Shown here in pieces: positions 1,103-25,801 of a stretch of 25,801 bases of DNA. The translations under genes were made by a program, and so were the position numbers. The stretch comes from a virus. A model generated the notes under the pieces. The model saw only the letters and a program-made list of their open reading frames with translations. It ran no database searches and was not told the DNA's origin. Each line of letters begins with the position of its first letter. Position 1 is the stretch's first letter. The stretch spans positions 1-25,801 of IMG/VR virus record IMGVR_UViG_3300047667_000461; one strand, written 5' to 3'.

Positions 1103-1322
1103 GGAACTTATTAAAGTTGCTAAAGAAGCTATTGTAGATTCAGACGATGACATATCAGCTGACAGACTTAAAAATGCTGCAGCTACAAAAAAACTAGCTA
1201 TATTTGATGCTTTTGAAATACTTAACCGTATTGTTGCAGAACAAGATATGTTAGATGAAAAACCTAAAGAAGTTAAAAAAGAAGTTGCATTTCGTGGCTT
1301 TGCTGAAGGAAGATCTAAATAA
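1047..1322 (+). CDS. Putative small terminase-type protein upstream of TerL
   Basis: A 91-residue, mostly helical protein. Residues 6-26 (LNIIQAGHVAVEELIKVAKE) form one amphipathic helix, followed by an acidic SDDDIS turn. A second helical region lies at residues 38-68 (ADRLKNAAATKKLAIFDAFEIL), with a basic tail ending GFAEGRSK. Size, helical content and position directly before TerL fit a small terminase subunit that recognises DNA and regulates the motor. No clear helix-turn-helix is visible, so this rests mainly on position. The only ATG before residue 68 is the one chosen, which forces a 56-nt overlap with the preceding gene in another frame. The N-terminal helix lies mostly inside the overlap and looks like real protein, so I keep that start. 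The stop overlaps the TerL ATG (TAATG). Confidence 0.6.
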   Translation: MNTKETKLNIIQAGHVAVEELIKVAKEAIVDSDDDISADRLKNAAATKKLAIFDAFEILNRIVAEQDMLDEKPKEVKKEVAFRGFAEGRSK

Positions 1323-3532
1323 TGTACGAGCAAACACTATATAAAGTATTACCTGATCACGTTAAACCTAAGATTCTTAAACGAATGAATAGGTATAACA
1401 AATGGGAGTATGGATACAACGAAGATCATGATATGATTGTTATATCTAAGACTGGACAAATTGGAGAAGTATACGAAATACAAAATCTTAAGATAGCTTT
1501 ACCTAAAGAAAAAGAAGTAGAGAAGTTTAAAGAAAATAGATGGACACCATTCAATTATCCTAAAGAATTAAAAAGAATTAAAACTGTGTTCGACTGGAGA
1601 GAGTACCCAGAAGAATTCAAAGAAAAATATTACGACTATATTGATAATGAGTTTAAGCGTCGCGAAGAAGGTTTCTGGTATATCAACAAAGATATTCCTA
1701 CTTATGTTACTGGTACGCATTACATGTATTTACAATGGTCTAAGATTGATGTAGGTCAACCAGATTTTAGAGAATCAAATAGATTATTCTTTATATTTTG
1801 GGAAGCTTGCAGAGCAGATTACAGGTGTTATGGTATGTCATACCTTAAAAACAGACGTTCAGGATTTTCTTTTATGGCATCAGGTGAGTGTGTTAACATG
1901 GCTACAATATCAACCGATGCTAGATTTGGTATATTATCTAAATCAGGTGCTGATGCGAAGAAGATGTTTACAGATAAAGTAGTTCCTATTTCAGTTAATT
2001 ATCCTTTCTTCTTTAAACCAATACAAGACGGTATGGATCGTCCAAAAACAGAACTAGCTTACAGAGTTCCAGCTAGTAAATTTACTAGAAGAAGTATTGT
2101 TTCTACTGATAAACCAGAAGATTTAGAAGGATTAGATACGACCATTGATTGGAAAAACACAGGTGACAACGCTTATGATGGTGAAAAACTAAAGTTATTA
2201 GTACATGATGAATCAGGTAAATGGGAAAGACCAAATGATATTCTTAATAACTGGAGGGTTACAAAAACCACTCTTAGATTAGGATCAAGAATTATTGGTA
2301 AGTGTATGATGGGATCAACATCAAATGCTTTAGACAAAGGAGGTAGAAACTTTAAAAAATTATATGATAGCTCAGATGTTAAAAAAAGAAACGCAAATGG
2401 ACAAACACGTTCAGGACTCTATTCTTTGTTCATTCCTATGGAATGGAATTACGAAGGATACATTGACTCTTATGGCTATCCTGTATTCGACACCCCACAA
2501 GAAAAAGTGTTTGGACCTCATGGAACTCCAATCAAGTTTGGGGTTATTGAATACTGGGAGAATGAGGTAGAAGGTCTTAAAGATGACCAAGATGGATTAA
2601 ACGAATTTTATAGACAGTTTCCACGTACTACAAAACACGCGTTCAGAGATGAGTCTAAAATGTCTCTATTTAATCTAACTAAAATATACCAACAAATAGA
2701 TTACAATGAAGAAGCAACTTCTGCTGCAATTGTAACTCAAGGTAATTTTCAATGGGAAAGAGGTATTGTAGATACTAGAGTTATATTTTCACCAAATAAA
2801 AACGGAAGATTTTATATAACTTGGGTACCACCAATAAACTTACAAAACAGATTTATAATTAAAAATGGTATTAAATATCCAGGCAACGAACACATGGGTG
2901 CTTTTGGTTGTGATAGTTATGATATATCAGGCACAGTAGATGGAAGAGGTTCTAATGGATCTTTACATGGTTTAACTAAGTTCAGTATGGAAGATGCTCC
3001 TGCTGATCATTTTTTCTTAGAGTATATCGCTCGTCCACAAACTGCTGAAATATTTTTTGAAGATGTTCTTATGGCTTGTATTTTTTATGGCATGCCAATA
3101 CTAGCAGAGAACAATAAGCCTAGATTGTTATATCATTTTAAAAGAAGAGGTTACAGAGGTTTTAGCATTAATAGACCAGATAAAGTCTATGCTAAGTTGT
3201 CTATAACAGAAAGAGAGATTGGTGGAATACCTAACTCTAGTCAAGATATAATACAAGCGCACGCTGCTGCAATTGAAACTTATATAGAAAATGCTGTAGG
3301 ATTTGATGGTGAAAATTATGGAGATGTTTACTTCCAAAGAACACTAGAAGATTGGGCTCAGTTTGATATAAACAAAAGAACAAAGTTTGATGCATCTATT
3401 AGTTCGGGACTTGCTATAATGGCTTGTAACAAAAGTAGATATGCTCCAGTAAATAGAAAAAAGAGAGAGCCAGTAGATATTGGTATAAAGAAATATGATA
3501 ATAAAGGTTTATTATCTAAAATAATCAAGTAA
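1322..3532 (+). CDS. terL: Large terminase subunit (TerL): packaging ATPase and nuclease
   Basis: The DNA-packaging motor: an N-terminal ATPase pumps the genome through the portal and a C-terminal RNase H-like nuclease cuts concatemers. Its 736 residues exceed most TerLs (roughly 450-650), with about 150 extra N-terminal residues, as in crAss-like phages. The probable Walker A is deviant: K176-N-R-R-S-G-F-S183, where Phe replaces the usual Lys before Ser. Walker B is LLVHDE with D296 and E297. The coupling motif is GSTSN at 331-335. Nuclease acidic residues are probably D531 (GCDSYD), E596 (ILAENNK) and a late Asp near 642 (QDII..H). The gene starts on a TAATG overlap and ends directly against the portal ATG. 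Unlike many crAss-like packaging genes in recoded genomes, it contains no in-frame TAG or TGA. A short 68-residue frame inside it is a shadow. Confidence 0.93.
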   Translation: MYEQTLYKVLPDHVKPKILKRMNRYNKWEYGYNEDHDMIVISKTGQIGEVYEIQNLKIALPKEKEVEKFKENRWTPFNYPKELKRIKTVFDWREYPEEFKEKYYDYIDNEFKRREEGFWYINKDIPTYVTGTHYMYLQWSKIDVGQPDFRESNRLFFIFWEACRADYRCYGMSYLKNRRSGFSFMASGECVNMATISTDARFGILSKSGADAKKMFTDKVVPISVNYPFFFKPIQDGMDRPKTELAYRVPASKFTRRSIVSTDKPEDLEGLDTTIDWKNTGDNAYDGEKLKLLVHDESGKWERPNDILNNWRVTKTTLRLGSRIIGKCMMGSTSNALDKGGRNFKKLYDSSDVKKRNANGQTRSGLYSLFIPMEWNYEGYIDSYGYPVFDTPQEKVFGPHGTPIKFGVIEYWENEVEGLKDDQDGLNEFYRQFPRTTKHAFRDESKMSLFNLTKIYQQIDYNEEATSAAIVTQGNFQWERGIVDTRVIFSPNKNGRFYITWVPPINLQNRFIIKNGIKYPGNEHMGAFGCDSYDISGTVDGRGSNGSLHGLTKFSMEDAPADHFFLEYIARPQTAEIFFEDVLMACIFYGMPILAENNKPRLLYHFKRRGYRGFSINRPDKVYAKLSITEREIGGIPNSSQDIIQAHAAAIETYIENAVGFDGENYGDVYFQRTLEDWAQFDINKRTKFDASISSGLAIMACNKSRYAPVNRKKREPVDIGIKKYDNKGLLSKIIK

Positions 3533-5902
3533 ATGAATACATACGCAAATCCAAATAGTGCCTTTCCAAGCCAAACTGTGCCAGATGCTGAAAAAGCTTC
3601 CCAAGAATACGGGAGGCAGGTTGCACAAGCTATTGAAAGCGAATGGTGGAGACAAGGTGGTAATGGAACTAGATTTGCTACTACTTATAATAGATTCCAT
3701 AGCTTAAGATTATATGCTAGAGGAGAACAACCAGTTCAAAAATACAAAGATGAATTAGCTATTAATGGTGACATGTCTTATCTTAATTTAGACTGGAAAC
3801 CTGTACCTGTTATTTCTAAGTTTGTTGATATCGTAGCAAACGGTATGAACAACAAGCATTATGAAATAAAAGCTTTTGCTCAAGATCCAGTATCGTTAAA
3901 AAAGAGAACTGATTACGCTAACTCTATATTGCAAGATATGAGAGCTAAACCTTATCTACAAAACATGCAAACTACTTTAGGCATCGATCAGTTTAATACT
4001 GATAGTCCTGATACTCTTCCTGAATCAGAAGATGAATTAGATTTGCACATGCAGCTTAGTTACAAGCAATCAATTGAAATAGCTGAAGAAGAAGTTATTA
4101 ATACTACTTTAAAGAAAAACAGGTTTGATAATATAAAGAAAAGATTTAATTATGACCTTGTTACTATAGGTATTGGAGCTTGTAAAACTCATTGGAATAA
4201 AGCTAATGGAGTTACATTACATTACGTAGACCCTTGTGATTTAATATATTCTTACACAGAAGATCCAAATTTTGAAGACATATACTATATAGGTGAAGTT
4301 AAAAGTTTAACTATACCAGAAATTGCAAAACAATTCCCACAGTTAACAGAAGAAGAATTAAAAAAAATACAACAAACTAAAGGTTATCAAAGAGAACAAT
4401 TGTACGGTTGGAACGGTTATGATCAAAACACTTGTCAAGTTTTATACTTTGAATACAAAACTTATAATGAACAAGTATTTAAAATAAAAGAAACTGAACA
4501 AGGTTTAGAAAAAGCTTTAGAAAAAACAGATCAATTTAATCCACCACCAAGTGATGGGTTTAAAAGAGTTAGTAGGAAAATAGAAGTATTATATAAAGGA
4601 GTTAAGATACTAGGTAACAACCAACTTATTGAATGGGAGTTATCAGAAAATATGACAAGACCTTTTGCTGATACTACTAAGGTTGAAATGAGTTATACTA
4701 TATGTGCTCCTAGACTTTACAAAGGTAAAATAGAATCATTAGTAAGTAAGATAACAGGTTTTGCTGACATGATACAATTAACACATTTAAAACTACAACA
4801 AGTTATGTCTAGAATAGTACCTGATGGTGTGTTCTTAGATATGGATGGTTTAGCTGAGGTTGATTTAGGTAATGGAACAAATTATAATCCAGCAGAAGCA
4901 CTTAATATGTATTTCCAAACTGGTTCGATAGTTGGTAGATCACTTACTCAAGAAGGTCAAATGAACGCTGGTAAAGTACCTATACAAGAGTTAGCTACGT
5001 CTAGTGGTCAAGCTAAAATAGGTAGTTTAATACAAACCTATCAGTATTATTTACAAATGATACGTGACGTAACCGGACTTAATGAAGCTAGAGATGGTAG
5101 TGCTCCAGAAAAAGATACATTAGTTGGTTTACAAAAAATGGCAGTTAACGCGTCTAACACAGCTACAAGGCATTTAATGCAAGGTAGTTTATGGTTAACA
5201 CTTAGAACGTGTGAAAATATTTCATTAAAAATAGCTGATTCATTAAATTTTCCACTTACTTTAAATTCTTTAAAAAATTCTATATCAACTTACAACTCTG
5301 CTACATTATCAGAGATACAAAATCTGAACATGCATGATTTTGGAATATTCTTAGAACTAGAACCAGATGAAGAAGAAAAAGCTGTACTAGAACAAAACAT
5401 ACAAATGTCAATACAACAAGGTGGTATTGATTTAGAAGATGCTATTGATATTAGAAGGATTAAAAATCTTAAACTTGCTAACGACGTTTTAAAACAAAAA
5501 CGTAAAAAGAAACAAAAAGATGATCAAGCTAATCAACAAGCTATGATTAAAGCTCAAGCTGATGCTAACGCAGAAGCTTCTGAAAGAGCTGCTCAAGCAG
5601 AGATGCAAAAAGCTCAAGCTTTAGTTGAAAGCGATGTTCAGTTAGAACAAGCTAAGTCTCAAATGGAAATACAAAGAATGCAAACAGCATCTCAAATAAA
5701 ACAACAAGAGATGCAAATACAGTTTGAATACGATATGCAACTTAAAGAAGCTGAATTAAAAGCTATGTCTGAAAAAGAAGCTTTAATTGAAAATCGTAAA
5801 GACAAAAGAATCAAGATAGAAGGTAATCAACAAAGTCAAATGATTGATCAAAGAAACAATGATTTGATGCCTATAGATTTTGAACAACAAGGTACTATGT
5901 AG
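3533..5902 (+). CDS. Portal protein
   Basis: Forms the dodecameric ring at the capsid vertex through which DNA enters and leaves. At 789 residues it fits crAss-like portals. The N-terminal 130 residues include WWRQGGNG and a YLNLDWKPVPV segment. The central region has YVDPCDLIYSYTEDP from residue 231, then YYIGEVKS, patterns I recognise from portals of crAss-like and other marine phages. Residues 395-540 (IESLVSKITGFADMI, DVTGLNEARDGS) match the helical stem and wing region of portals. Residues 651-789 are a long Gln/Ala/Lys/Glu-rich helix, a predicted coiled coil, possibly the barrel. The ATG follows the TerL TAA with no gap, implying coupled translation. It ends with the only TAG stop in the window. 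Confidence 0.9.
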   Translation: MNTYANPNSAFPSQTVPDAEKASQEYGRQVAQAIESEWWRQGGNGTRFATTYNRFHSLRLYARGEQPVQKYKDELAINGDMSYLNLDWKPVPVISKFVDIVANGMNNKHYEIKAFAQDPVSLKKRTDYANSILQDMRAKPYLQNMQTTLGIDQFNTDSPDTLPESEDELDLHMQLSYKQSIEIAEEEVINTTLKKNRFDNIKKRFNYDLVTIGIGACKTHWNKANGVTLHYVDPCDLIYSYTEDPNFEDIYYIGEVKSLTIPEIAKQFPQLTEEELKKIQQTKGYQREQLYGWNGYDQNTCQVLYFEYKTYNEQVFKIKETEQGLEKALEKTDQFNPPPSDGFKRVSRKIEVLYKGVKILGNNQLIEWELSENMTRPFADTTKVEMSYTICAPRLYKGKIESLVSKITGFADMIQLTHLKLQQVMSRIVPDGVFLDMDGLAEVDLGNGTNYNPAEALNMYFQTGSIVGRSLTQEGQMNAGKVPIQELATSSGQAKIGSLIQTYQYYLQMIRDVTGLNEARDGSAPEKDTLVGLQKMAVNASNTATRHLMQGSLWLTLRTCENISLKIADSLNFPLTLNSLKNSISTYNSATLSEIQNLNMHDFGIFLELEPDEEEKAVLEQNIQMSIQQGGIDLEDAIDIRRIKNLKLANDVLKQKRKKKQKDDQANQQAMIKAQADANAEASERAAQAEMQKAQALVESDVQLEQAKSQMEIQRMQTASQIKQQEMQIQFEYDMQLKEAELKAMSEKEALIENRKDKRIKIEGNQQSQMIDQRNNDLMPIDFEQQGTM

Positions 5903-7164: not shown

Positions 7165-8667
7165 ATGGGTGTATTAAGTCCTCAATTGGGAAGTATAGTA
7201 CCTTCGTCCATACAAGCAACATTAACAAGTAACTACTTGAATTTTGCTAATGGAGGTGGAAACGACTTCGCACAACAATATCTACCGGAAATATATGAAG
7301 CAGAGGTAGAGCGTTATGGAAACAGAACGTTAGCTGGCTTCTTAAGAATGGTTGGCGCTGAAATGCCAATGATGTCTGATCAAGTAGTTTGGTCTGAGCA
7401 AAACAGATTACACATTTCTTACGAAGGTGTATCTTGTCAAGCTGTAGGTGGCGCACAAGTTGGAAATAGATTAACTCTTCCTGTAACTGCTGCTCCAAAC
7501 ACTAATGTTAGAAATGTAATATTTCAAAACATGACAGTTGTAATTATGGATCCTGCAAATCCTGCTTTCACAGTAAAAGCTATCGTTACTCAATCAGGAG
7601 CGAATGGTGCTATTGGAGCAAATTTTGTAGATGTAATTCCTTACACAAGAGCTGCTGTTAACGCTGGAGCTTTAGCAACTGCTGCAACACTTAAAGTGTT
7701 TGTATATGGTTCTGAATATGAAAAAGGATCTACATTAGCTACGGCTTCTGGACAATCTATCGAGCCTCAATTATCAGTATTCTCTAACAAACCAATTATT
7801 ATCAGAAACAGATACGCTGTAAGTGGATCTGATACTGCTCAAATCGGTTGGGTTGAAGTTGCTGCTGAAGACGGAACTTCTGGATACTTATGGTATTTAA
7901 AAGCTGAAGGTGAAACTAGATTACGTTTCGAAGATTACTTAGAAATGGCAATGATTGAAGGTGAATTAGCTAATGCTGCACAAGCAACTGCTATCGCTGG
8001 AAATGCTCAACTTGCATTCCCTGCTGCTGCTGCTGCACCAGCTGGTACTATTGGTACTGAAGGTTTATTTGCTGCTATTAATAATGGTGGTAATGTACTT
8101 TCTGGTTATGCTGGATCTTTACAGGATTTTGATTCTGTATTAGAGAATTTAGATTCTCAAGGAGCAATTGAAGAAAACATGCTTTTCTTAGATAGAAAAA
8201 CTGAGTTGTTATTTGACAACATGTTAGCACAACAAAACTCTTACGGAGCTGGTGGTACATCTTACGGTGTATTCGAAAACTCTGAAGACATGGCGCTTAA
8301 CTTAGGTTTCTCTGGATTTAGAAGAGGTTCTTATGATTTCTACAAGACTTCATGGAAATACTTAAATGATGCTTCAACAAGAGGTGGTTCTGCTAACTTT
8401 GTTAACGGTGACAATATTGATGGTGTATTAGTTCCTGCTGGAACTTCTACAGTATACGATCAGTTACTTGGAACAAACATCAGACGTCCTTTCTTACATG
8501 TAAGATACAGAGCTTCTCAAGCAGATGACAGAAGAATGAAATCATGGTTAACAGGTTCTGTTGGCGGTGCTTCTACTTCTACATTAGATGCAATGGAAGT
8601 AAACTTCTTATCTGAAAGATGTTTATGTGTACAAGCTAGAAATAACTTTGTGTTATTCACAGCTTAA
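7165..8667 (+). CDS. Major capsid protein (HK97-fold type)
   Basis: The shell-forming protein, 500 residues, close to the size of crAss-like capsid proteins. After a short Ser/Gln-rich N-terminus, residues 42-54 read EIYEAEVERYGNR and 71-79 read SDQVVWSEQ, segments I recognise from capsid proteins of crAss-like and related marine Bacteroidota phages. The remainder is Gly/Ala-rich with strand-loop content expected of an HK97 fold: a long low-complexity Ala stretch near residues 280-300, and a conserved-looking C-terminus containing RRPFLHVRYRASQADDRRMKSW. Codon use in this gene is cleaner and Ala/Gly codons are more frequent than in its neighbours, as expected for the most highly expressed protein. 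The A-rich leader lacks a Shine-Dalgarno sequence. A strong hairpin terminator follows the stop. Confidence 0.92.
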   Translation: MGVLSPQLGSIVPSSIQATLTSNYLNFANGGGNDFAQQYLPEIYEAEVERYGNRTLAGFLRMVGAEMPMMSDQVVWSEQNRLHISYEGVSCQAVGGAQVGNRLTLPVTAAPNTNVRNVIFQNMTVVIMDPANPAFTVKAIVTQSGANGAIGANFVDVIPYTRAAVNAGALATAATLKVFVYGSEYEKGSTLATASGQSIEPQLSVFSNKPIIIRNRYAVSGSDTAQIGWVEVAAEDGTSGYLWYLKAEGETRLRFEDYLEMAMIEGELANAAQATAIAGNAQLAFPAAAAAPAGTIGTEGLFAAINNGGNVLSGYAGSLQDFDSVLENLDSQGAIEENMLFLDRKTELLFDNMLAQQNSYGAGGTSYGVFENSEDMALNLGFSGFRRGSYDFYKTSWKYLNDASTRGGSANFVNGDNIDGVLVPAGTSTVYDQLLGTNIRRPFLHVRYRASQADDRRMKSWLTGSVGGASTSTLDAMEVNFLSERCLCVQARNNFVLFTA

Positions 8668-15632: not shown

Positions 15633-17246
15633 ATGCCACTAACACTAGAAGTTTCTTATTTTAACTCATATTACGTGAAGAGACTAGCGGATGTTCCTTA
15701 CATACCTGATGTAGGAGCGGAAAGAAATGCTGTGACTACAGGTTCAGTTCCCGCTGGAAGTAATGCTACGTTTGGTGGTACTGGAATTGGTACCCCGGTT
15801 GTTGGTATGGCTATTAATGGAGCCGGTGTTGTTGGTGAGACAAAAATAGTTACAGTAAATCAAAACCAAACTATAATAACGTTCGATAAAGACGTGACCT
15901 TTACCGCTACTAATTATACGTTTACTTATGCGTGGGTTGGGCCTCAAGTATCTAATCCAGATGAGGATTGGTACATAGAAGAATCACGCATTAGAGGAGG
16001 TTATAATAACACCTCCACTGATTATGGTGTAAAAGCATATATAGTTGAAGAACAAGATTCTCAGGCGCGTAGAGGTAACTCTCTTATATACTCTGGTATA
16101 TTCAACTCAAGAACAGGTATAAACCAAACTAATCAATTTAGTGTAGCAGACGAAATAACTAGAAGTGTAGATCCAATAAGTGGATCAATACAAAAGTTGT
16201 TTGCTGAAGACACTAACTTGCTTATATTTCAAGAGCGTAAAGTTAATAACGCATTGATAGATAAAGACGCTATATTCACAGCAGAAGGTTCTGCAATAAC
16301 CACGTCAGGTAGATTAGTAATAGGACAAATAACTCCTATAGCTGGTAACTGGGGAATAAGTAAAGATCCTTTATCGTTTGCCGTATATGGTTATCAAAAA
16401 TACTTTGTTGATAGAAACAGAAACGCTGTGTTAAGATTAGCAGGTGGACAAATAGCAGAAATATCTGGTATGGGGATGGTTGATTTTTTTAGAGATACTT
16501 TATCAGCTGTTACAAGTACTGGTGTTATATTAGGTGCTTATGATAATCATAATCAAAATTATGTTTTATCTATACAACCTAATAATAGATACGAAATAGA
16601 CGGAACAAGTTTTAAAACTTTAACCTTTGACGAAAGATCACAAGGTTGGACTAGTTTTTTTACATACAAACCAGATGCTATATTTAGTTCACAAGGTAGT
16701 TTTTACTCTGCAAAAGACAAAGGAAATAATAGTAGAATATTTAAGCATTATACTAATCAAACTAGAAATAGTTTTTACGGATCAACAAGTAGCTCCTCTG
16801 TTCAGTTTGTATTTAATCCATCACCTAGTAATATAAAAACATTTCAAACAATAAACTACGAAGGAACTAATGGCTGGGAAGTAACAGCGTTTCTTTCTGA
16901 TGAAACAGGGTTTGATGCAGTTGCTGGTAATTGGATTAATCATGTAGATACAATTGTAGAAGGAGCAGGAGCAAACCAATATAGAAAAATATATAGCTAC
17001 GACGAAGGAGCTTATACAGAAGATAATATCCAGTACAGAGCTGGATTTGATAGAAAACAAAATAAATATATGGCAGTTATACCAAACAATACTCAAACAC
17101 CTATTCCTGGAGAAGTGGTATTTGGTAATCAAACATCAGGTATAAAAGCTTATTACGCAACAGTCACTATGAAAACAGATGCAACTACTGATCCTAATGG
17201 ATTAAAAGAATTGTTTGCTGTCAGTAGTACGTTTGCGCCAAGATAA
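15633..17246 (+). CDS. Tail 'stabilization'/muzzle-type protein, C-terminal part
   Basis: A 537-residue protein. Residues 1-16 (PLTLEVSYFNSYYVKR) lead into a beta module at about 33-105, with VGMAING and ITFDKDVTFTA. From residue 114 the conserved body begins: YIEESRIRGGYNNT, then SNALIYSGIFNSR-like and GSIQKLFAEDTNLLIFQE. Next come WGISKDPLSFAVYGYQKYFVDRNRNAVLRL, then FFRDTL, FDERSQGWTSFF and FKHY. This is a clear match in pattern to the second half of crAss-like tail 'stabilization' proteins, built of propeller-like repeated strands. In several relatives I recall this region joined to the sequence that here forms the preceding 1368-residue gene. The two genes probably form one tail-end structure. 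It is followed by an A/T-only leader and the internal-protein genes. Confidence 0.72.
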   Translation: MPLTLEVSYFNSYYVKRLADVPYIPDVGAERNAVTTGSVPAGSNATFGGTGIGTPVVGMAINGAGVVGETKIVTVNQNQTIITFDKDVTFTATNYTFTYAWVGPQVSNPDEDWYIEESRIRGGYNNTSTDYGVKAYIVEEQDSQARRGNSLIYSGIFNSRTGINQTNQFSVADEITRSVDPISGSIQKLFAEDTNLLIFQERKVNNALIDKDAIFTAEGSAITTSGRLVIGQITPIAGNWGISKDPLSFAVYGYQKYFVDRNRNAVLRLAGGQIAEISGMGMVDFFRDTLSAVTSTGVILGAYDNHNQNYVLSIQPNNRYEIDGTSFKTLTFDERSQGWTSFFTYKPDAIFSSQGSFYSAKDKGNNSRIFKHYTNQTRNSFYGSTSSSSVQFVFNPSPSNIKTFQTINYEGTNGWEVTAFLSDETGFDAVAGNWINHVDTIVEGAGANQYRKIYSYDEGAYTEDNIQYRAGFDRKQNKYMAVIPNNTQTPIPGEVVFGNQTSGIKAYYATVTMKTDATTDPNGLKELFAVSSTFAPR

Positions 17247-17265: not shown

Positions 17266-17997
17266 ATGCCATTAGCAACAACACTAGGAGTAGCTTCAAG
17301 CGTGATAACTGGAATCATAGGTGGAGCGGCTGCTAAAAAAGCAAAGAGAGCCGCTGCAAAAAAAGCCAGAGCTTTATCCAAAAAACTAGATTTTTTAGAA
17401 AACAATAGACAAGATATAGTTAATCCTTATGAAGGTATTAGTGATCTGTCTAGCATGGCTACCGATAGATCTGGGCAAATGTCAAATGCATATAATAATT
17501 TATCTGTAGCTACTCAAGCAGCTGAGATGCAAATAGAAGAAGCTGATATTGCGTTAGCAAATACTTTAGACACGTTAATGGCAAGTGGTGCTGGTGCTGG
17601 AGGAGCAACCGCTTTAGCTCAAGCAGCTTTGCAATCTAAGAAAAGCGTAGCAGCAAGTATTGAAAGTCAAGAAAAATCTAATGAAGATAAAAGAGCACAA
17701 GGTGAAGCTGATTTAGAAAGAAGACAGCTAGCTGAGAAACAAAGAATAGAAGGTATATCAATGAGTCAAGCAGAAAAAGTTCAACAAGCAGAAGTATCTG
17801 GAGCTCAATTTGTTTTCAGTGCAACCGAACAAAGAGAAGATGCCAAAATAGATAGAGTAGCTGGTCAATTAGATAATGCTCAAGCTCAAATGGCACAAGC
17901 AAGAGCAGATGGAACAGCTGCAATAACAGGAGCAATTGGCGGTATAGCAACCGCGTTTACACCAAGTTCAGGAACCCCAGCAACTAACAAAGATTAA
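17266..17997 (+). CDS. Probable internal virion (ejection) protein
   Basis: A 243-residue, Ala/Gln/Glu-rich protein. Residues 4-22 (ATTLGVASSVITGIIGGAA) are a hydrophobic Gly/Ala helix followed by a very basic, Ala-rich stretch (KKAKRAAAKKARALSKKLD). The rest is long helix with heptad character, with a small Gly-rich break (GAGAGGATALAQ) near 107. The hydrophobic end plus basic patch plus coiled coil resembles T7 gp14-type internal core proteins, which are packaged and inserted into the host envelope during DNA ejection. The N-terminal stretch lacks a signal-peptidase site, so export by the host is not indicated. Placement after the tail genes and before the giant protein supports the class. 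It is 2 nt before the next gene. Confidence in the gene is high, in the role moderate. Confidence 0.65.
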   Translation: MPLATTLGVASSVITGIIGGAAAKKAKRAAAKKARALSKKLDFLENNRQDIVNPYEGISDLSSMATDRSGQMSNAYNNLSVATQAAEMQIEEADIALANTLDTLMASGAGAGGATALAQAALQSKKSVAASIESQEKSNEDKRAQGEADLERRQLAEKQRIEGISMSQAEKVQQAEVSGAQFVFSATEQREDAKIDRVAGQLDNAQAQMAQARADGTAAITGAIGGIATAFTPSSGTPATNKD

Positions 17998-17999
17998 TT

Positions 18000-19277
18000 A
18001 TGTCATATAGAAATCCAAAATATATAAATCAATCAGTTCAAGGTTCTTTTGATAAACTTCAAAACACTATTAACGCTAGTGTTACACAAGCTAAAAGAGT
18101 AGAAAAAGACCAAGAGTTAAAAAGCGAAGCTGATACAAATAGAGGCATATTAGCCGCGTCAATCCAAAGTCAAGCTACAATAACTAAAAACGCTGAAAGC
18201 AACGTAGTAGGTAACCAAATGAGTCGTGGTAAAGTTGGAGATTATTTTAGTTCATATCCTGCTAGAGCTGCTGAAATAGCTATGGAGATGGCTAAAACAC
18301 CTAAGCCAGAAAACTATGGAGAGCTACAATCAGAATTACAGTGGATAAATAGTTCTCCAGAAACAATGAAAGGTATGTTAACTAATGCTCAGTCGTTTTT
18401 AAACACAAAAGACATGAGCGACATTGATCCAAATCAAAACAAAGATATACTTTTAGCATCTCAAGTTTTTAACGGAGAGCTAGGTTTTACGGAAGAAAAT
18501 GGATTTTCATATGATTTTCAAAAAGGTGAAGGTAATTCTATAGAAATGGTTTTTAAAGGAGAAGGTTATATACCACCAATGAAAAATGGTAAAGCTAATA
18601 CAGATCCTAATGATTTAGTTAGTTTTCCGACTGACGGTTATTCTATGAATAGTGCTGGTATGGAAGCTATGCAAGTACAAGATCAATCTTTAATTGTTAG
18701 TACACCTAAAATGAGTAAACAAATAAACAGCGCGTTACAAGGTACAAATATACTAGCTGGTGCGAATTTTAATGACAAAGGAGTTTACACTAGTGGTGGT
18801 ACATTTAATAAAACATTATTAGGTACAGAAACAGAGGAACATACAGGCCCAGATGGTGGAATTGTTATGCTAAAATTAGTTGATCCTGATAAAGTTGCTA
18901 GCGCAATGAATTTAGAACTTACACAACAGGTAGATTCTTTTATTGGTCCAGAAGGTGACAATGGCCAAGCTAGATCCGTGTGGAATATGCGTATCGCTAA
19001 AGATAGTCAAGCCACTGTTTTTAACGAAGATTTAGCTAAGCAAGCTTTCCCTAAATTAGGAGATGATACAGAAGCTTTAAAAGCAGCATGGGCAAAAGGA
19101 TCAGGTATTTGGAATTATAAAGATGACTTAGGGGAAGAACAAAAAGCGGTTTTTAATGTTATGTATAGAAAATTTATAGTAGACGATGTAGTAGAAACTA
19201 TGGAATCAAACGAATTAGTTAATCAAAGAATTGATTTACTGTTAACAGAACCTACTAAAACTGGCAATAAAGGATAA
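18000..19277 (+). CDS. Unknown virion-module protein, possibly internal
   Basis: A 425-residue soluble protein. Residues 1-70 are helical and Gln/Ser/Lys-rich (SVQGSFDKLQNTINASVTQAKR, then AASIQSQATITKNAE). The middle (about 155-260) is strand-rich with many Asp/Asn/Gly, including GFTEENGFSYDF and VSFPTDGYSMNS. Residues 330-390 are helical. No catalytic motif, membrane segment or signal peptide is visible, and I do not recognise the family. Its place between an internal-virion-like gene and the giant protein suggests a packaged or tail-core component, as in the three-gene core sets of T7-like phages. The ATG uses the last base of the 2-nt gap after the preceding TAA, so the pair is probably co-translated. 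The stop lies 13 nt before the giant gene. Confidence 0.7.
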   Translation: MSYRNPKYINQSVQGSFDKLQNTINASVTQAKRVEKDQELKSEADTNRGILAASIQSQATITKNAESNVVGNQMSRGKVGDYFSSYPARAAEIAMEMAKTPKPENYGELQSELQWINSSPETMKGMLTNAQSFLNTKDMSDIDPNQNKDILLASQVFNGELGFTEENGFSYDFQKGEGNSIEMVFKGEGYIPPMKNGKANTDPNDLVSFPTDGYSMNSAGMEAMQVQDQSLIVSTPKMSKQINSALQGTNILAGANFNDKGVYTSGGTFNKTLLGTETEEHTGPDGGIVMLKLVDPDKVASAMNLELTQQVDSFIGPEGDNGQARSVWNMRIAKDSQATVFNEDLAKQAFPKLGDDTEALKAAWAKGSGIWNYKDDLGEEQKAVFNVMYRKFIVDDVVETMESNELVNQRIDLLLTEPTKTGNKG

Positions 19278-19290
19278 AAATTTAATAAAT

Positions 19291-22200
19291 ATGGCAAATA
19301 CAAACAGGGACTTTGAGAAATTAAAAAAGGACGCTATAGAAGCAAATTGGCCAGGATTGAAGTCATCAAACAGATATTCTTTTGCTGACTATGATAAGAT
19401 GCAGAAGTTTTTAGATGACAAAAAAGAATTAGAAGTAAAAGAGTTAGAAGTAAAAGAAAATGAAGTAAAAGAAGAAAAAGAAAAAAACAAGTTTAAAGGA
19501 AATAGAGAAGTTGCTAAAAATATTTGGAAACATTTAAGATACAGGCGTGAAACAAATTCAGATTTTGAAACCTGGCTTAGTAATACAAAGGGTGACAAAT
19601 CCATAAGACAAAATATACACGATTATTTAGTTGATCAAGGTGAGGTAACTAATGATTACAATACTTGGAATAAAAACGTTTATAACGATCAAATAGAAAA
19701 TGTAGAAGAGGAAGAAGAAGAGGTGTTTGATCAAAAAACAGATTCTGGCATGGTTCAAGATCCTTCTATAGAAGTTCTTGGAGTTCCTTTTGACATTAAT
19801 ATAAATGCAGAAATAGAAGAAGACGAAATTGACACCGATAACTATGAAACTGAGTTAAACGATTTAGTAAGTAGAATTGAAACTCTTAAAGATCAACCTA
19901 TATTAAACAAAGAAACAGGTAAAGTTGATAGACAAGCTACTAAAGATGCTATAAAAGAATTAACTGATCAATTTCCTAGTAGTTTTAATTACAAAGAACC
20001 TGAGTTTACTGCTGAAGAATTACCAAACTTAGATATTGATTTATTTAAAAATATAAATTTAAAAGAAGTAGTTGTAGATGATGTAACATCAGGTAAAGTG
20101 CTAATTGGCAAAAACAGAGGTGAAGATATTGTAGACACAAGAAGTACTGAAATAAGAAAAATAAAGGCTACAGAAAAAAGAGACGTTGAAGTTGCTTCAA
20201 GTTTAAAAAATCAGTTAAACGAACAATTTAAAAACACAGGGTATAGTTTTGATGTAGACCATAGAGAATCTGTAGCGGGTTTAACTACCACTCAAGGGGC
20301 AAACATGTATGGTGTTGGTATGACAGTAACTGCTCCTAATGGTGAAACATTATCTATAGACACAAGAAACGACGGTTTTAATGATGAGAATCAAAAGCTT
20401 ATTAAAGATTTCATGAGAGATAACAAAGCTAAAACTCCTAAAGAAATTGAAAAAGAAAGAGAAAGACTTAGACAATACAATGCTGGAGAAATAGATTTAT
20501 CTACTGAAGAACTAAATAGAATCGCTACTCCAGACAAGTCAGCTGTAGCTTTGATTAGAAAATATGCTCCAAACATTAAAGATATACCAGAAGATGACAC
20601 AGACGCTTTTAAAGAAGCTTACTCAGACGCTTTAAGAAAAGCAAATGATTCAGATCCTAGATTTAAACTTATCACAAACTCTATTAAGGACGAAGTGTTT
20701 TCAGGTGCTGAAACTAAAAGTGAAGAACTAAGGAACTCATATGATACTTCAACAGAAGAAGGATTAGCTTTAGCTAGTGCAGATTTTTCTAGTTGGTATA
20801 ACGAAGAGTTTCAAAAAAGATTAAAAGAAAACAAAGATGCTAAAAGAATATTTCAAGAATATGGATTAGCTGGCAAAGAATTTTTTGGTGAATATTCAAA
20901 AGAGTACACAAGATACAATTATGATACCTGGTTAAGAGACAATGTTCTTAGAGGTATAGACGAAAGTATTAAAGAAGACAATGGTGAACAAAGTTTTTTA
21001 AGCAAGCAAAATGAAGCTTTTGCTAGTATTCCTAGTGGTTTCACCGCTATGACCAACAAAGTTGAAGTAGCAATGCAAGAATGGTTTGAGTGGGAAAAAA
21101 GATCTGAAGTGTATAATGGAATGGAAAGAGGATTTAAAGACGGATCTTTAAACAGAAAAATGACACTTAGAGAAGCTAAAAAAATAAATCCAGAAGTAGG
21201 CAGCTTTTTGAAATGGCGTATACACGGTTGGGATAATAATGATACTTTAGGTGAGTTTTATGATACACGTAAAAAACGTTGGGAAAACACTAGAGATGAT
21301 ATGAAGGAAGATCTTGACGAAATGCAAGAAGCTGAGATGATTCAAAGTGCTTTTAATACTTTTGATAGTAATGACTTTTCAGACACGGTTGCTAATGCTA
21401 TAAAACAAGCACCACATATGGCGCCTACAATGTTAGGTAGTCTTATGATTGCTACTGGCACCGCTGCAACAGTGGCTTCTGGTGGTAGTGCTACACCTAT
21501 AACGGCTGGTGTTATTGGAGCTGGTAAGATTCTTCTTGGAGTTGGTACCGCGGTTATGGCTGCTCAGACGTATGGAGATACTTTTATAGAAGGTACTAGA
21601 CGTCAAATGGAAGAGGAATACGGTGAGGATGGTTTTACAACTCAAGAATATTTAGATGCTTTAGGTCAACAAAAGTACGGTGATCAATTTGAACCTATAT
21701 TAACCGCTGCAGCAGTAGCTGGTACAGAATATTTAGCTGGAAGCGCTGGTAGTAAATTAATTGGTCAAGGAGTAGGTAATATACTAAAATCAAATATTGG
21801 TAAAAAGCTACTAGGTAAAACTTTTTCTAATTATATTGGAACTGTTGGAGGAACTGTAGCAGGTATGTACGCAGGTGCTGCAGAAGAAGCTGTTACTGAA
21901 GGTTTTCAATCTTACTTAGAACAAGTAGGCCAAAACGCAATGAACATAAGTGGAGCTGGTGACATGATAGGTAAAAACGCTTTTAATGATAACATTGACA
22001 TGGACCAAATACAGCAAGAAGCTAGAATGGGTTGGAACATGGGTAAACTATTTGGCGTATCTGGTGTTGCGGGTAGTATGTTGAGTGCTAATGTAGACAA
22101 CTCTTATGCTGGCCAAGCTATGCGAATAGCATCAGGTATAGATTTTTCTAGAGGAAGCAAAAATTATAAAGTTGGTCAAGAATACTTTAAAGATCTTGTT

Positions 22201-25200
22201 CAAAAAGTTCTTGAAGATAAAAATTTGTCTGATGAGCAAAAAGCAAGTCAAATAAAAGATATTTCAGCAATACGAAACGCCTCTATGAAAGTTCCAAAAG
22301 GTATAGACCCGAATGTTAGAGGTAAACTGATTAATCTTATCAAAGAAAGAAATCTTATTGATGGAAAAATTAAAGAAGTAAACGACAAAGATCTAACCCA
22401 ATCAGAAATTGCTAGAAGTGAAGAAATATCTAATGAAATTAAAGACATTGTAGCTAACAACACTGCGGAGAATGCTTTAATGAGAAATATTAATACTGTA
22501 AAAAACATTATTGGTAAGTCTAGTAAAGGAAAAACAGAGTTATTAGATTTTAAAAATGCTAAAGAGCTTAATGCTTATGTTAAAAAAGAAGGTTTAAAAG
22601 GTTTTACTAGAAAAATGTCTGGTAATCAAGGTAACATACTTATTAATCCTAAAACTGGTGAAAAAAAGATTTTAATAAACAGAGAGGTATCTATAGCAGA
22701 TCAAAACGTTAACGTAGCTGGTCATGAGTTTCTACATGGTTTACTGTATGAAACATTACAATCTAGTCCTGAAACAATGGATCAACTAGGTAGTTCTTTA
22801 GATACGTATTTAGCAAAATTAAAAGGTGTTGATGCTACTCAAGTAGCTATGAGCAAGTATCAAACAAGAGTTAATCAATATTTACAAAGCGGAAATGAAT
22901 TTACTAATGAAGAAAAATTAACTTTATTTTCTGATGCTTTAACTAACGGTGACATAAAATTTGAGCAAACTATTTTTACAGATATGATGGATGGTCTTCG
23001 TAGAATACTTCAAAACATGGGGGTATCTGTTAAATTTAACGACGCTAAGGATGTTTATAATTTTATTAAAGATTATAACAAGTCTATTGAAAAAGGCGAG
23101 CTAACAACTGCTCAATCAGATCTACAAACAACAGCCGCTACAGGAACTTTAGTAGATAACAAAAGTAAGTCAGAAAACAAAACAGTAGTCAAAGAAAGCG
23201 TTAGTGATTCATATGATCAAACTAATGAATTAATGTCTGATGAAGATTTTGATATTACAGCTCCTTTTGATACAAAAAGAGCATTAAAAGCTGCAGGTGC
23301 CGTTATAGAAACAACTACCAAAAGACTATTTGATGGTGTTTTACCCATGAATAGACAAGGTGTAAGTAGAAATGATTTTAAAAGAATTCTTGAAAGTGAG
23401 TATATTAATGTTCTTGGTGAATACAATGCAGATCAAGATACTAATATGCAGGGTGCTGGAAAACAAACAAGCACTTTGTTTAATTTAAGAGCAAACAAAC
23501 TAGCTACTGAAAACTTTAAACAAACGCAAACGCAAAGTCTTGACGACGAAAAAGCTAGTCAAGTAGTTGATGAAACTAGCGGTCAAGAATTTGATGAGAC
23601 TGCAAAAGAAGATAAAGGTAGAAAAAAAGTATACGCTTCTCAAACAGATCAAGTTGGAGAATTAGATACGGCAGAAACTAAAGCTATTATAAAAGATGAG
23701 GTTTCTAAAGACATACTATTAGCTGCCAACAAAGGTAAAAACGCTGCGGACACAGCTAAAGATATAGCTGACGAGTCTAAGAAAAACTATTTTAAAAGAC
23801 TTAGAAAAGATATAGGTACTTTTGCTAGTCAAAAATACAAAGACTTTGTAAATTCACTAGATAAAAACTTTATAAAATCTTTACCTGTTGGAACTATAAA
23901 AAGAAGGTTTGGTAAGTTGTTTGGTATAAAACAAACAGGTACAACACCTACTAAACAAACTAGCAAGACAGGAAAACCTAGTTACTTTAACAAACCAGTT
24001 TACAATGTGCCTAAGGTTACAGTGCAAGGTTTACAAGATTTTAAAGATTATTTTTTAGGTGGTGAAAAAAGACAACAATCTTTATATAATATATTAGCTA
24101 CTGATTTTGCGTTAGAGTCTATACAAGAACTAATGGCTGATAAGGCTTTTATGAAAAAGCTAGACACAGCTTTAGGTAATGATGGTATCACTAGCGTGGA
24201 GTTCATGGAAAACATCGAAAACAAACTTGATGCAAGAACTGCAGAAGATAGTTCTTTTGATGTTGTTAAAGCTAGTGTTTCAGATGATGTAAAGGCTAAA
24301 GAAGAATTAAAGACAAAAAACCAACAAGCAAAAAATAAAATAAATAAAAATACATCTAAAATTTTAGCGCCAATCAAAGGTCAAGGAAAAGTAAGTAAAA
24401 CATTAGACAAATTTGCTGAAACTTTAGGGTTAACTCCATTTCCGGATTTGAGTAGAAAAGATCAGTTAATTAGATTAACAGATTTTTTAACTAAAGACTT
24501 TAATAAAATATTTAATTTAAAACAATTTGCAACTTCTAAAAATTTAGCTTCTGCTGGAAATAAATTTTCTACAACTGAAAAATATAAACAGCTATACGTA
24601 AATACCATAAAAGGTTTAGAGACTCTATATAGCAAAGGTGTTGATCAAAATTTAATAAACGATACTCTGATAGCTTTAAAAGAAGGCGATCTAGGAACTG
24701 TAGAAAATTTATTAGAATTAGCTGGGAAATCTACTGTAGAGACTAGCGGAAATATAACTAAGGCAATTTCTAAAAAAGAATTATTTAAACAAATAGAATT
24801 TGTAAAAGAAAATATAACATCAATTAACCTTGGAAGAGTCGAAATTTTAGACGGAATAAGAAAAGCTTTAAATAAAGATGTTTTAAATAATTTAGGTCCT
24901 GTAAGGTATTTATTACAAAGTGGTAATAATAACTATAATTGGTTTAGAAATTTATCTACATTGAAAGGTTTTATGGATGGTTTTTCAGGTAAAAACGACG
25001 AACACGTTTTACAAGCTGGTGTAGCGGCTGGTTATACTTTAGACGCGATGCTCGCTTCTGATAAAATATATAGTGACTATAAAGGTTATTTTTTAGAAAA
25101 TTATTTTCAAGTTCAAACAGGAAAAAACTTTACAGAAGCAGAAACTACATATTTAGAGCGTAGTAAAAATATATTTAATGGTGAATACAATGAAGATTCT

Positions 25201-25801
25201 TGGGCAGCTAAAGATCAAGCATATCCTTTGCTAAACCAACAAATGATAAGATTTTTAAAAGGTGAAATATCCATCAACCAAGTGCCTGATTCTTTGATAA
25301 GATATTTTAATAAATATTTTGCAGCTGATCCTTCTAGTATGTACGTAGTTGATAACAAAGGCGACTTAGTTACAGTTGCAGAACTTTATAATGTTGTTCT
25401 TCCTAAAGATTTACAAAACAATCCACAAGCTAAATTAGCTCAACAAAAAGCTTTGTTTGACTTAATGTCAAAAGTTAATTTAAATGAAGACATTGCTGTA
25501 AATGAAAAACTAGCAAGACAAAACTTTAAAAATGAACTTAAATTATCTAAAGAAAAACAATCTAACGTAGTTTCTAGAGCTAGTTTAAGTGATGGTATTT
25601 TTACTGAACAACAAACTAGTTTAGAGCAAAAAAATATAATGATTAATTCATTAGAAACTGTTGTAAAAGCTTCTTTACCAGATCAAAAGTCTAAAGGAAT
25701 AAGTGTTTTTGATTTTGACGATACGTTAGCTAAAACTAATAGTAAAGTTATTGTTACAATGCCTGATGGCAACACAAGCAAAATCGACGCTACTGAGTTT
25801 G
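19291..25801 (+). CDS. Giant multidomain virion-associated protein with zinc-peptidase and HAD motifs (3' end outside window)
   Basis: An open frame of 2170 codons with no stop up to the window edge, so the C-terminus is missing. I translated it fully. Residues 45-65 are a charged Lys/Glu repeat. Residues 311-377 look like a small alpha/beta domain (GMTVTAPNGETLSIDTRNDG). Residues 711-765 are hydrophobic and Gly/Ala-rich, possibly membrane-active. Residues 851-880 contain an AAEEAVTEGFQSYLEQ helix. At 1145-1149 lies HEFLH, a zincin motif, with E1207 or E1208 (NEEKL..FSDAL) as a plausible third ligand. Residues 1410-1800 are helical and Lys-rich. At 2141-2145 lies DFDDT, HAD motif I. Large proteins with mixed enzyme modules in this position are usually packaged and injected to remodel the envelope or host metabolism, as with crAss-like cargo proteins. 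The role is inferred. Confidence 0.85.
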   Translation, partial: MANTNRDFEKLKKDAIEANWPGLKSSNRYSFADYDKMQKFLDDKKELEVKELEVKENEVKEEKEKNKFKGNREVAKNIWKHLRYRRETNSDFETWLSNTKGDKSIRQNIHDYLVDQGEVTNDYNTWNKNVYNDQIENVEEEEEEVFDQKTDSGMVQDPSIEVLGVPFDININAEIEEDEIDTDNYETELNDLVSRIETLKDQPILNKETGKVDRQATKDAIKELTDQFPSSFNYKEPEFTAEELPNLDIDLFKNINLKEVVVDDVTSGKVLIGKNRGEDIVDTRSTEIRKIKATEKRDVEVASSLKNQLNEQFKNTGYSFDVDHRESVAGLTTTQGANMYGVGMTVTAPNGETLSIDTRNDGFNDENQKLIKDFMRDNKAKTPKEIEKERERLRQYNAGEIDLSTEELNRIATPDKSAVALIRKYAPNIKDIPEDDTDAFKEAYSDALRKANDSDPRFKLITNSIKDEVFSGAETKSEELRNSYDTSTEEGLALASADFSSWYNEEFQKRLKENKDAKRIFQEYGLAGKEFFGEYSKEYTRYNYDTWLRDNVLRGIDESIKEDNGEQSFLSKQNEAFASIPSGFTAMTNKVEVAMQEWFEWEKRSEVYNGMERGFKDGSLNRKMTLREAKKINPEVGSFLKWRIHGWDNNDTLGEFYDTRKKRWENTRDDMKEDLDEMQEAEMIQSAFNTFDSNDFSDTVANAIKQAPHMAPTMLGSLMIATGTAATVASGGSATPITAGVIGAGKILLGVGTAVMAAQTYGDTFIEGTRRQMEEEYGEDGFTTQEYLDALGQQKYGDQFEPILTAAAVAGTEYLAGSAGSKLIGQGVGNILKSNIGKKLLGKTFSNYIGTVGGTVAGMYAGAAEEAVTEGFQSYLEQVGQNAMNISGAGDMIGKNAFNDNIDMDQIQQEARMGWNMGKLFGVSGVAGSMLSANVDNSYAGQAMRIASGIDFSRGSKNYKVGQEYFKDLVQKVLEDKNLSDEQKASQIKDISAIRNASMKVPKGIDPNVRGKLINLIKERNLIDGKIKEVNDKDLTQSEIARSEEISNEIKDIVANNTAENALMRNINTVKNIIGKSSKGKTELLDFKNAKELNAYVKKEGLKGFTRKMSGNQGNILINPKTGEKKILINREVSIADQNVNVAGHEFLHGLLYETLQSSPETMDQLGSSLDTYLAKLKGVDATQVAMSKYQTRVNQYLQSGNEFTNEEKLTLFSDALTNGDIKFEQTIFTDMMDGLRRILQNMGVSVKFNDAKDVYNFIKDYNKSIEKGELTTAQSDLQTTAATGTLVDNKSKSENKTVVKESVSDSYDQTNELMSDEDFDITAPFDTKRALKAAGAVIETTTKRLFDGVLPMNRQGVSRNDFKRILESEYINVLGEYNADQDTNMQGAGKQTSTLFNLRANKLATENFKQTQTQSLDDEKASQVVDETSGQEFDETAKEDKGRKKVYASQTDQVGELDTAETKAIIKDEVSKDILLAANKGKNAADTAKDIADESKKNYFKRLRKDIGTFASQKYKDFVNSLDKNFIKSLPVGTIKRRFGKLFGIKQTGTTPTKQTSKTGKPSYFNKPVYNVPKVTVQGLQDFKDYFLGGEKRQQSLYNILATDFALESIQELMADKAFMKKLDTALGNDGITSVEFMENIENKLDARTAEDSSFDVVKASVSDDVKAKEELKTKNQQAKNKINKNTSKILAPIKGQGKVSKTLDKFAETLGLTPFPDLSRKDQLIRLTDFLTKDFNKIFNLKQFATSKNLASAGNKFSTTEKYKQLYVNTIKGLETLYSKGVDQNLINDTLIALKEGDLGTVENLLELAGKSTVETSGNITKAISKKELFKQIEFVKENITSINLGRVEILDGIRKALNKDVLNNLGPVRYLLQSGNNNYNWFRNLSTLKGFMDGFSGKNDEHVLQAGVAAGYTLDAMLASDKIYSDYKGYFLENYFQVQTGKNFTEAETTYLERSKNIFNGEYNEDSWAAKDQAYPLLNQQMIRFLKGEISINQVPDSLIRYFNKYFAADPSSMYVVDNKGDLVTVAELYNVVLPKDLQNNPQAKLAQQKALFDLMSKVNLNEDIAVNEKLARQNFKNELKLSKEKQSNVVSRASLSDGIFTEQQTSLEQKNIMINSLETVVKASLPDQKSKGISVFDFDDTLAKTNSKVIVTMPDGNTSKIDATEF
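19426..19470 (+). repeat. Three tandem 15-nt units encoding E-x-E-V-K
   Basis: Three in-frame units, gaattagaagtaaaa, gagttagaagtaaaa and gaaaatgaagtaaaa, encode ELEVK, ELEVK and ENEVK, followed by a degraded unit (EEKEK). The repeat lies near the N-terminus of the giant protein and probably gives a flexible charged helix or linker. Unit number may vary between related phages by slippage. It has no spacer structure, so it is unrelated to CRISPR. Confidence 0.8.

Follow-up and report, generated by a model that had tools for sequence, protein, structure and literature searches.

A giant gene of an uncultured phage clade, predicted to join a zincin peptidase and a HAD phosphatase in one probably ejected chain

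Why would a phage place a peptidase motif and a phosphatase motif on one very long chain, and does the virion carry that chain into the host? The question is raised by the last gene of a phage contig of 25,801 bases (IMG/VR record IMGVR_UViG_3300047667_000461; the whole contig, positions 1 to 25,801, is called the window here). An original prediction, made from the letters of the window, saw in the product of this gene (the giant) an unusual single effector, injected to cleave a host protein and act on a phosphate substrate. We find that the giant has two enzyme domains of unrelated predicted activity, a zincin-type metallopeptidase and a HAD phosphatase, recognized by motif, alignment and model, and that it probably serves a podovirus-like phage as its large ejection protein, one of the virion-delivered polyvalent kind. 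Because the record is itself a viral contig of 25,801 bases, the 3′ end of the gene lies outside it. Judging by its relatives, the full-length protein would have about 3,000 residues: 37 of them, hand-picked to have a stop codon and no large insert, have 836-978 residues (median 901) counted from the HAD motif. The parts of the giant are as follows.

19291..25800, + strand: giant gene, ATG start, 2170 codons, stop-free up to the window end
19291..20610, + strand: N-terminal ~440 residues, lineage-specific, with no BLASTP match in 91 HAD-bearing open reading frames (ORFs)
21325..22083, + strand: Gly/Ala-rich helical block, residues ~679-931, probably membrane-associated, homologous to blocks of phi38:1 gp101 and Elemovirus gp21
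22498..23130, + strand: zincin-like metallopeptidase core, residues 1070-1280, predicted from profile, model and alignment
22723..22737, + strand: HEFLH zinc-binding motif, residues 1145-1149
22912..22914, + strand: E1208, predicted third zinc ligand, invariant in 41 aligned cores
23188..25680, + strand: variable region between zincin and HAD, residues ~1300-2130, whose counterpart in the model of a relative, L087, has helices and a few strands
25684..25800, + strand: start of the predicted HAD phosphatase domain, residues 2132-2170, truncated where the record stops
25711..25725, + strand: DFDDT, HAD motif I, residues 2141-2145

The unbroken frame of at least 2170 codons and the positions of HEFLH and DFDDT, as originally predicted, were confirmed. 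To gather relatives, viral contigs were searched with the DNA pattern of VFDFDDTLA[KR]T, which returned at least 119 stretches. An ORF containing the motif peptide was present in 91 of these; 54 such ORFs were longer than 1,900 residues, as far as the contigs reach, and nine were small stand-alone HADs of 158-187 residues from the motif on. BLASTP with the window giant matched 84 of the 91, many just at the HAD start, and the best relative was L087 (41% over 1,000 residues). One member, L053, has an ORF of 4504 residues as far as its contig reaches, 1,729 of them counted from the HAD motif. Short peptides of the window giant found no close relatives in viral contigs.

Chance bears on the two motifs to different degrees. 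From the composition of the giant, 0.0024 occurrences of HEXXH are expected in it, and across the 54 long relatives 47 were seen (one each in 47) as opposed to 0.37 expected, so that a chance origin was rejected. The expectation for DxDx[TV] is 1.55 occurrences, and DFDDT by itself therefore proves nothing. It is read as the start of a HAD domain because the 36-40 residues around it match, at up to 80% identity, relatives in which the full HAD domain follows. Another reading of DFDDT, as an RNA polymerase loop, had its basis in the DxDGD-type loop of crAss-like phages; it was rejected, since the relatives continue with HAD motifs II-IV.

HEXXH occurs in 20 of the 21 ORFs that are complete at both ends, and lies 854-1715 residues (median 1017) ahead of the HAD motif. 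A profile of the zincin core, built from 17 giants, matches 41 of the 54 long giants; eight of the other 13 nonetheless have HEXXH. The profile has 46 matches in all, 44 of them with the motif, and setting aside two near-copies (L118 and L089), a fragment (L025) and two matches without the motif (L085 and L026) left 41 cores for alignment. These have a median pairwise identity of 22.5%, and H1145, E1146, H1149 and E1208, and nothing else, are invariant in them. Since the two histidines, the glutamate and a downstream glutamate alone are kept at such divergence, HEXXH is, as judged from alignment and model, a genuine zincin-type site. An AlphaFold2 model of residues 655-1295 has a predicted local distance difference test score (pLDDT) of 76-95 in the zincin core and a mean of 68 overall. 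The modelled core runs from a strand and a helix through three strands to the HEXXH helix (model residues 488-502) and a later helix with E1208 (552-564). This layout agrees with that of the polyvalent metallopeptidases (MPTases) in PMC5512222, where a zincin sheet is followed by the HEXXH helix and a second helix with a Glu, and 12 MPTase clades are distinguished.

Outside the family, the core profile finds Elemovirus gp21 at HEIFH (95.2%, E 2.8e-8) and, weakly (40.8%), the giant of MW202828, at one of its two HEXXH sites. The latter protein (L003 741-12320, 3859 aa) has HEXXH at 1615 and 2500 and no DFDDT motif. The giants of phi38:1, phi19:3, phi13:2 and Panino have no HEXXH. The 41 cores gave no good match in Pfam, PHROGs and NCBIfam offered nothing strong for either the peptidase or the HAD cores, and searches of PDB sequences with HAD, front-plus-zincin and zincin profiles returned nothing useful. 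Foldseek lists for both large models were dominated by long-helix proteins. In both structure comparisons the strand region of the zincin model resembles glyoxalase-fold proteins over ~50 residues, which we read as a shared sub-arrangement in the model.

The part of the HAD within the window consists of motif I and 25 further residues, so relatives carry the evidence. In all 38 relatives selected for being long and free of a large insert, the two aspartates of motif I, the threonine of motif II, the lysine of motif III and the aspartate pair of motif IV are unchanged; motif I had served to find these sequences, and motifs II-IV had not. By a script pattern, all 67 ORFs that are long enough have motif II, and 63 of them have the motif III lysine; motif IV is likewise present in 63. 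A further set had the motifs in 35 of 35, having been preselected by pattern for motifs II and IV. The HAD is the best conserved part of the giants (median identity 60%; the C-terminal part reaches 43.8% and the part ahead of the HAD 15.4%). A model of the HAD and C-terminal part of L087 (mean pLDDT 75, HAD blocks about 57-84) places a Rossmann-type HAD fold at its residues 304-469, and HADs top the second-look list of structure matches at Z 8-10. The first match is Pnkp1 (4xru_A, Z 10.4, 126 residues, 3.1 A), followed by Nir2, a plant storage protein, phosphoserine phosphatase, acid phosphatases and effector HADs. On sequence motifs and this model, DFDDT opens a complete HAD phosphatase domain in the relatives. 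Pfam had no good match for the HAD core, whether with the 17 giants or with the L087 HAD; phrog_415, named polynucleotide kinase, matches two of the 17 giants (best E 1.6e-6) and related stand-alone HADs, and the L087 HAD just at E 0.096. Structure prediction had been proposed as a check of the zinc-peptidase and phosphatase assignments, and the models agree with both: a zincin-like layout, with weak matches to solved zincins, is modelled around residue 1145 and a Rossmann-type HAD fold in L087, and site and domain are conserved in relatives.

The HAD domain also has a point at which other sequences are inserted. The distance between motifs I and II was measurable in 60 of 73 relatives and is longer by about 140-200 residues in eight, which have an insert at one point directly after motif I. 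Five inserts (L034, L050, L065, L073 and L098) contain a P-loop (GGPGxGKTN-like); those of L050 and L065 match AAA_33, Zeta_toxin and the polynucleotide kinase family phrog_505, while the other three were read by eye. As far as sequence can tell, these five relatives carry a P-loop kinase nested in the HAD, that is, a kinase within a phosphatase. L013, L089 and L126 have, at the same point, about 140-185 residues starting VYYHGTS or VRVFHGG; L013 and L089 look like near-copies, and the inserts of L013 and L126 found no match in Pfam or PHROG. By its look this insert may be akin to ADP-ribosyltransferases.

Is the giant a virion protein? Its gene comes after those for terminase, portal, capsid and other structural proteins and after two smaller genes.

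1322..3532, + strand: terminase large subunit, phrog_6681 E 8e-161
3533..5902, + strand: portal protein, phrog_6547 E 1e-139
7165..8667, + strand: probable major capsid protein, phrog_13704 (virion structural protein) E 5e-86, named capsid by its place as in Calle_1
17266..17997, + strand: small Ala-rich protein, 243 aa, predicted ejection partner from gene order
18000..19277, + strand: 425-aa protein, predicted ejection partner from gene order

The small Ala-rich gene has a counterpart in 21 of 23 relatives searched (six of them just at E 5e-5 to 2e-4), and the 425-aa gene in 6 of 23. The terminase, portal and capsid genes match flavophages: the terminase is 63% identical to that of MW202828 (Manatee Spring) and 45% to that of Flavobacterium elemoA, and the portal is 33% identical to that of Cellulophaga phi38:1. 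In seven of eight annotated relatives inspected, a giant gene likewise follows the structural genes. Its product has 3859 aa in MW202828, 3694 in elemoA, 1691 in phi38:1, 1871 in phi19:3, 1990 in phi13:2 and 1829 in Panino; in Calle_1 the gene is in the same position and runs across the record start. Five of these seven giants are labelled 'structural' by their depositors. Position and homology to giants so labelled, both read from sequence, favour the originally predicted placing of the giant in the virion.

A membrane-associated front had also been part of the original prediction, in the form of a hydrophobic segment. Kyte-Doolittle averages over 19 residues do peak at 710-729 (1.22) and 733-760 (1.67), so the segment stands where it had been placed; it is only moderately hydrophobic, and a segment passing the threshold of 1.4 is found in the front part of 8 of 21 complete relatives. 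The Gly/Ala-rich block around it (~679-931), modelled with low confidence over most of its length, has homologues in phi38:1 gp101 (96.6%, E 7e-10), in Elemovirus gp21 (95.4%, E 1.8e-8) and, more weakly, in the phi19:3 giant (55.8%, E 1e-4). At the other end, the L087 model has ~700 mostly helical residues after the HAD. In a viral structure library, the nearest proteins to this HAD and C-terminal model are from uncultured viruses (30-42% identical, E down to 8.5e-60). Four of them, A0A218MMX7, A0A218MLT5, A0A218ML07 and A0A7S9STY3 (Virus NIOZ-UU157), are members of the family already deposited; they sit undescribed in UniProt, uncharacterized or, in one case, named 'UDP-N-acetylglucosamine kinase'.

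Two kinds of known system resemble the giant. Polyvalent proteins of phages and conjugative elements (Iyer et al. 2017, PMC5512222) are likewise giant chains with unrelated enzyme domains, and share with it a zincin having HEXXH and a second-helix Glu, as well as a gene beside the virion genes. The giant differs from them in its predicted HAD phosphatase, and searches with the Pfam families MPTase-PolyVal and LPD38 gave no match. In phage N4, portal and capsid genes are followed by those for gp52 (pore), gp51 (tunnel) and gp50, an ejected polymerase of 3,500 residues (PMC12633501; its abstract swaps the roles of gp51 and gp52 relative to body and legend, and the body is followed here). The small, medium and giant genes of the window resemble this three-gene ejection cassette, of which gp50 is the last. 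The polymerase gp50 has a membrane-spanning front, an HExxH subdomain and a large helical end (PMC12633501), much as the giant has a membrane-associated front, HExxH and a very large helical C-terminal part. Unlike gp50, the giant has a HAD and no recognised RNA polymerase (Pfam, PHROG and NCBIfam gave no polymerase match in the giants, and no search was aimed at polymerase motifs), and its zincin precedes the other enzyme, whereas that of gp50 follows it. Elemovirus gp21 (Flavobacterium phage elemoA) shares gene position, front block and zincin with the giant, and Cellulophaga phi38:1 gp101 shares position and front block and has no HEXXH. Other literature drawn on is PMC4411300, PMC8776804, PMC7077304 and PMC13288928.

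We propose that chains of ~3,000 residues would be packed in the head together with the products of the two genes directly upstream, and that at infection the packaged proteins would open a channel across the envelope, with the Gly/Ala-rich front of the giant lying in or at the inner membrane. The zincin would cut a chain, in all likelihood the one it belongs to, either inside the virion or upon arrival, and the HAD with its ~700-residue helical tail may end in, or anchored at, the cytoplasm. There the HAD would take phosphate off a small molecule or a nucleic acid; a nucleotide or the 3′ end of a damaged nucleic acid is the likeliest substrate. Packaging, ejection, processing and substrate are all parts that we infer.

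Several findings weigh against this proposal. For the peptidase, seven of the 54 long relatives have no HEXXH, and four of these (L026, L039, L054 and L115) span the entire stretch before the HAD, which means that the peptidase can be absent; L026 even matches the zincin profile. L054, complete at 2980 residues, keeps the HAD, so that the peptidase can be lost or replaced. The zincin match in the second-look structure list is weak (Z 5.9, root-mean-square deviation 5.2), a PDB structure search with either large model gave no match under E 0.001, and a search with PF18818 (MPTase-PolyVal) matched 0 of 11 records. As to the HAD, just 39 of its residues are inside the window, and the HAD and C-terminal part were looked for and not found in the giants of Elemovirus, MW202828 and phi38:1. 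The structure library contains proteins named polyvalent-associated, ART-PolyVal or MuF domain at E 8e-7 to 2e-3, with low template modelling (TM) scores (0.15-0.36) and large deviations; kinship of the C-terminal part with polyvalent proteins is thus only suggested. PF18857 (LPD38) matched 0 of 11 records and no control. Zincin and HAD profiles have no sequence similarity to N4 gp50, and the likeness to N4 is therefore one of layout. As to the virion, 'structural protein' is the depositors' label, given by similarity in phi38:1; the MW202828 giant is labelled rhoptry-like protein and that of Panino tRNA methyltransferase; and Gundel_1, the eighth annotated relative, has its giant upstream of the terminase.

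It could be that the giant is no virion protein at all but is made in the infected cell and acts in the cytoplasm. We give this little chance, as the gene follows structural genes and, in five of five terminase-chosen relatives that are long enough, the giant is 22-26 kb downstream on the same strand. At the other extreme the giant may be purely structural, a tunnel or core scaffold with relics of enzymes, as the structural labels of most positional counterparts and the lack of HEXXH in those of phi38:1, phi19:3, phi13:2 and Panino would allow. That is highly improbable, because in both domains it is the catalytic residues that stay invariant, and relics would not keep them. If the zincin is active, it may cut a host protein once inside the cell, as an effector, instead of serving as a processing protease. 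Its great divergence outside the active site is what a part in an arms race would show, and host targets are named as one possibility for polyvalent MPTases (PMC5512222). We consider this somewhat unlikely: the multi-domain layout calls for processing, the zincin has no target or specificity feature that we could see, and nothing shows the originally predicted host cleavage. Processing of the own chain is better precedented, because the documented polyvalent case, P1 DdrB, is one of processing before packaging, although N4 gp50 and some plasmid proteins are said to travel unprocessed (PMC5512222). By this analogy self-processing is the likeliest work of the zincin, with host cleavage possible and not favoured.

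For the HAD, two substrates compete. It may be a Pnkp-like 3′ phosphatase that heals nucleic-acid ends, so that host tRNAs or phage DNA would be shielded at entry from defences that rely on nucleases. The evidence here consists of the Pnkp1 chain, matched at its phosphatase part, the phrog_415 matches, and the kinase nested in the HAD of five relatives, which makes a kinase-phosphatase pair. In Pnkp1, a repair enzyme from bacteria and the closest solved phosphatase fold in the second-look list, kinase and phosphatase stand in tandem; in the five relatives they are nested. Other HADs are within 1-2 Z units of Pnkp1, the L087 HAD itself barely reaches phrog_415, and of the nested kinases, the two that were tested match Zeta_toxin and AAA_33 alike. 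An RNA ligase, which RNA repair would lead one to expect, was found in 1 of 19 long records, below cut-off; a separate search for the T4-ligase family had no positive control. The near absence of RNA ligase counts a little against RNA repair. We regard the end-healing role as a possibility to be taken seriously, short of probable. An equally serious possibility is a phosphatase of proteins or small molecules by which host signalling or nucleotide pools would be reset: the list for L087 includes the effector HADs Lem4 and Ceg4 and phosphoserine and acid phosphatases, but these are matches at the level of fold, with Lem4 and Ceg4 at Z 6.6-8.3. The Pnkp1 match to the model favours a nucleic-acid end or a nucleotide as the substrate. 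The most specific version, in which a virion-shipped, self-processing peptidase-phosphatase has a HAD (kinase-nested in some members) that heals ends before phage gene expression and undoes nuclease-based defences, above all tRNA-cleaving ones, at entry, is distinctly unlikely as a whole.

The giant is not a peculiarity of one phage. The window terminase recurs in 42 of 50 family records (full-length copies 72-86% identical) and the capsid protein in 49 of 50 (mostly 53-74%); the records were hand-chosen, mostly for long ORFs, and all were found through the HAD motif. This recurrence in giant-bearing records indicates that the carriers are one uncultured phage clade, related by sequence to Flavobacterium Elemovirus and Cellulophaga phi38:1. 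As median pairwise identity among 17 giants is 27.6%, the giants of the clade appear to evolve far faster than its head genes. A less biased sample consisted of 80 terminase loci, 17 of which were checked for the giant. Its HAD and C-terminal part were present in five; in the remaining 12 the contig ends less than 20 kb past the terminase start, before that part of the gene. The zincin region was also matched in four of the five, the fifth, G054, matching only upstream of it. The clade is common in viral metagenome contigs, where a terminase search returned at least 600 rows. It also looks new: tblastn with three giants (the window's, L087 and L051) had no match in 50,697 phage records, and the L087 HAD alone met two places there, at E 0.01-0.02, in records of 634,780 and 642,428 bases.

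The giant, then, is shared by a phage clade and belongs to a known polyvalent-protein theme, which does not bear out the original view of an unusual single effector. Injected giants and polyvalent proteins bearing a zincin are already known. What look new are a HAD phosphatase in a giant of polyvalent type, kinases nested in that HAD, and recurrence across a clade. Literature searches and PMC5512222 gave no description of a HAD phosphatase in such giants; in the text of the latter, 'haloacid' and 'phosphatase' have 0 occurrences and 'had' three, those displayed being the verb. If the proposal is true, the injected polyvalent domains gain a HAD phosphatase with a cassette-like insertion point, and the opening minutes of infection by such phages can be tied to specific enzymes that are open to test.

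Thirteen loci lie in metagenome-assembled genomes (MAGs) labelled Aliivibrio, Woesearchaeota, Flavobacteriaceae, Bacteroidetes, Ilumatobacteraceae and Clostridiales, and are taken as mis-binned viral contigs. Two MAG contigs labelled Flavobacteriaceae, L221 and L223, have HAD-like stretches of ~150 residues, 35-38% identical to the HAD of the giant, and by sequence these are a possible source or sister of the domain. PADLOC on four sequences found no match. Upstream of the terminase, positions 497-1102 of the window encode a GroES-like co-chaperonin (phrog_13932, E 7e-21), likewise annotated in Elemovirus and Calle_1. Finally, the adjacent genes 11496-15602 and 15633-17246 match positions 1-175 and 940-1227, respectively, of phrog_14478, a structural family of 1474 positions, so that a gene that is single elsewhere seems to be split in the window.

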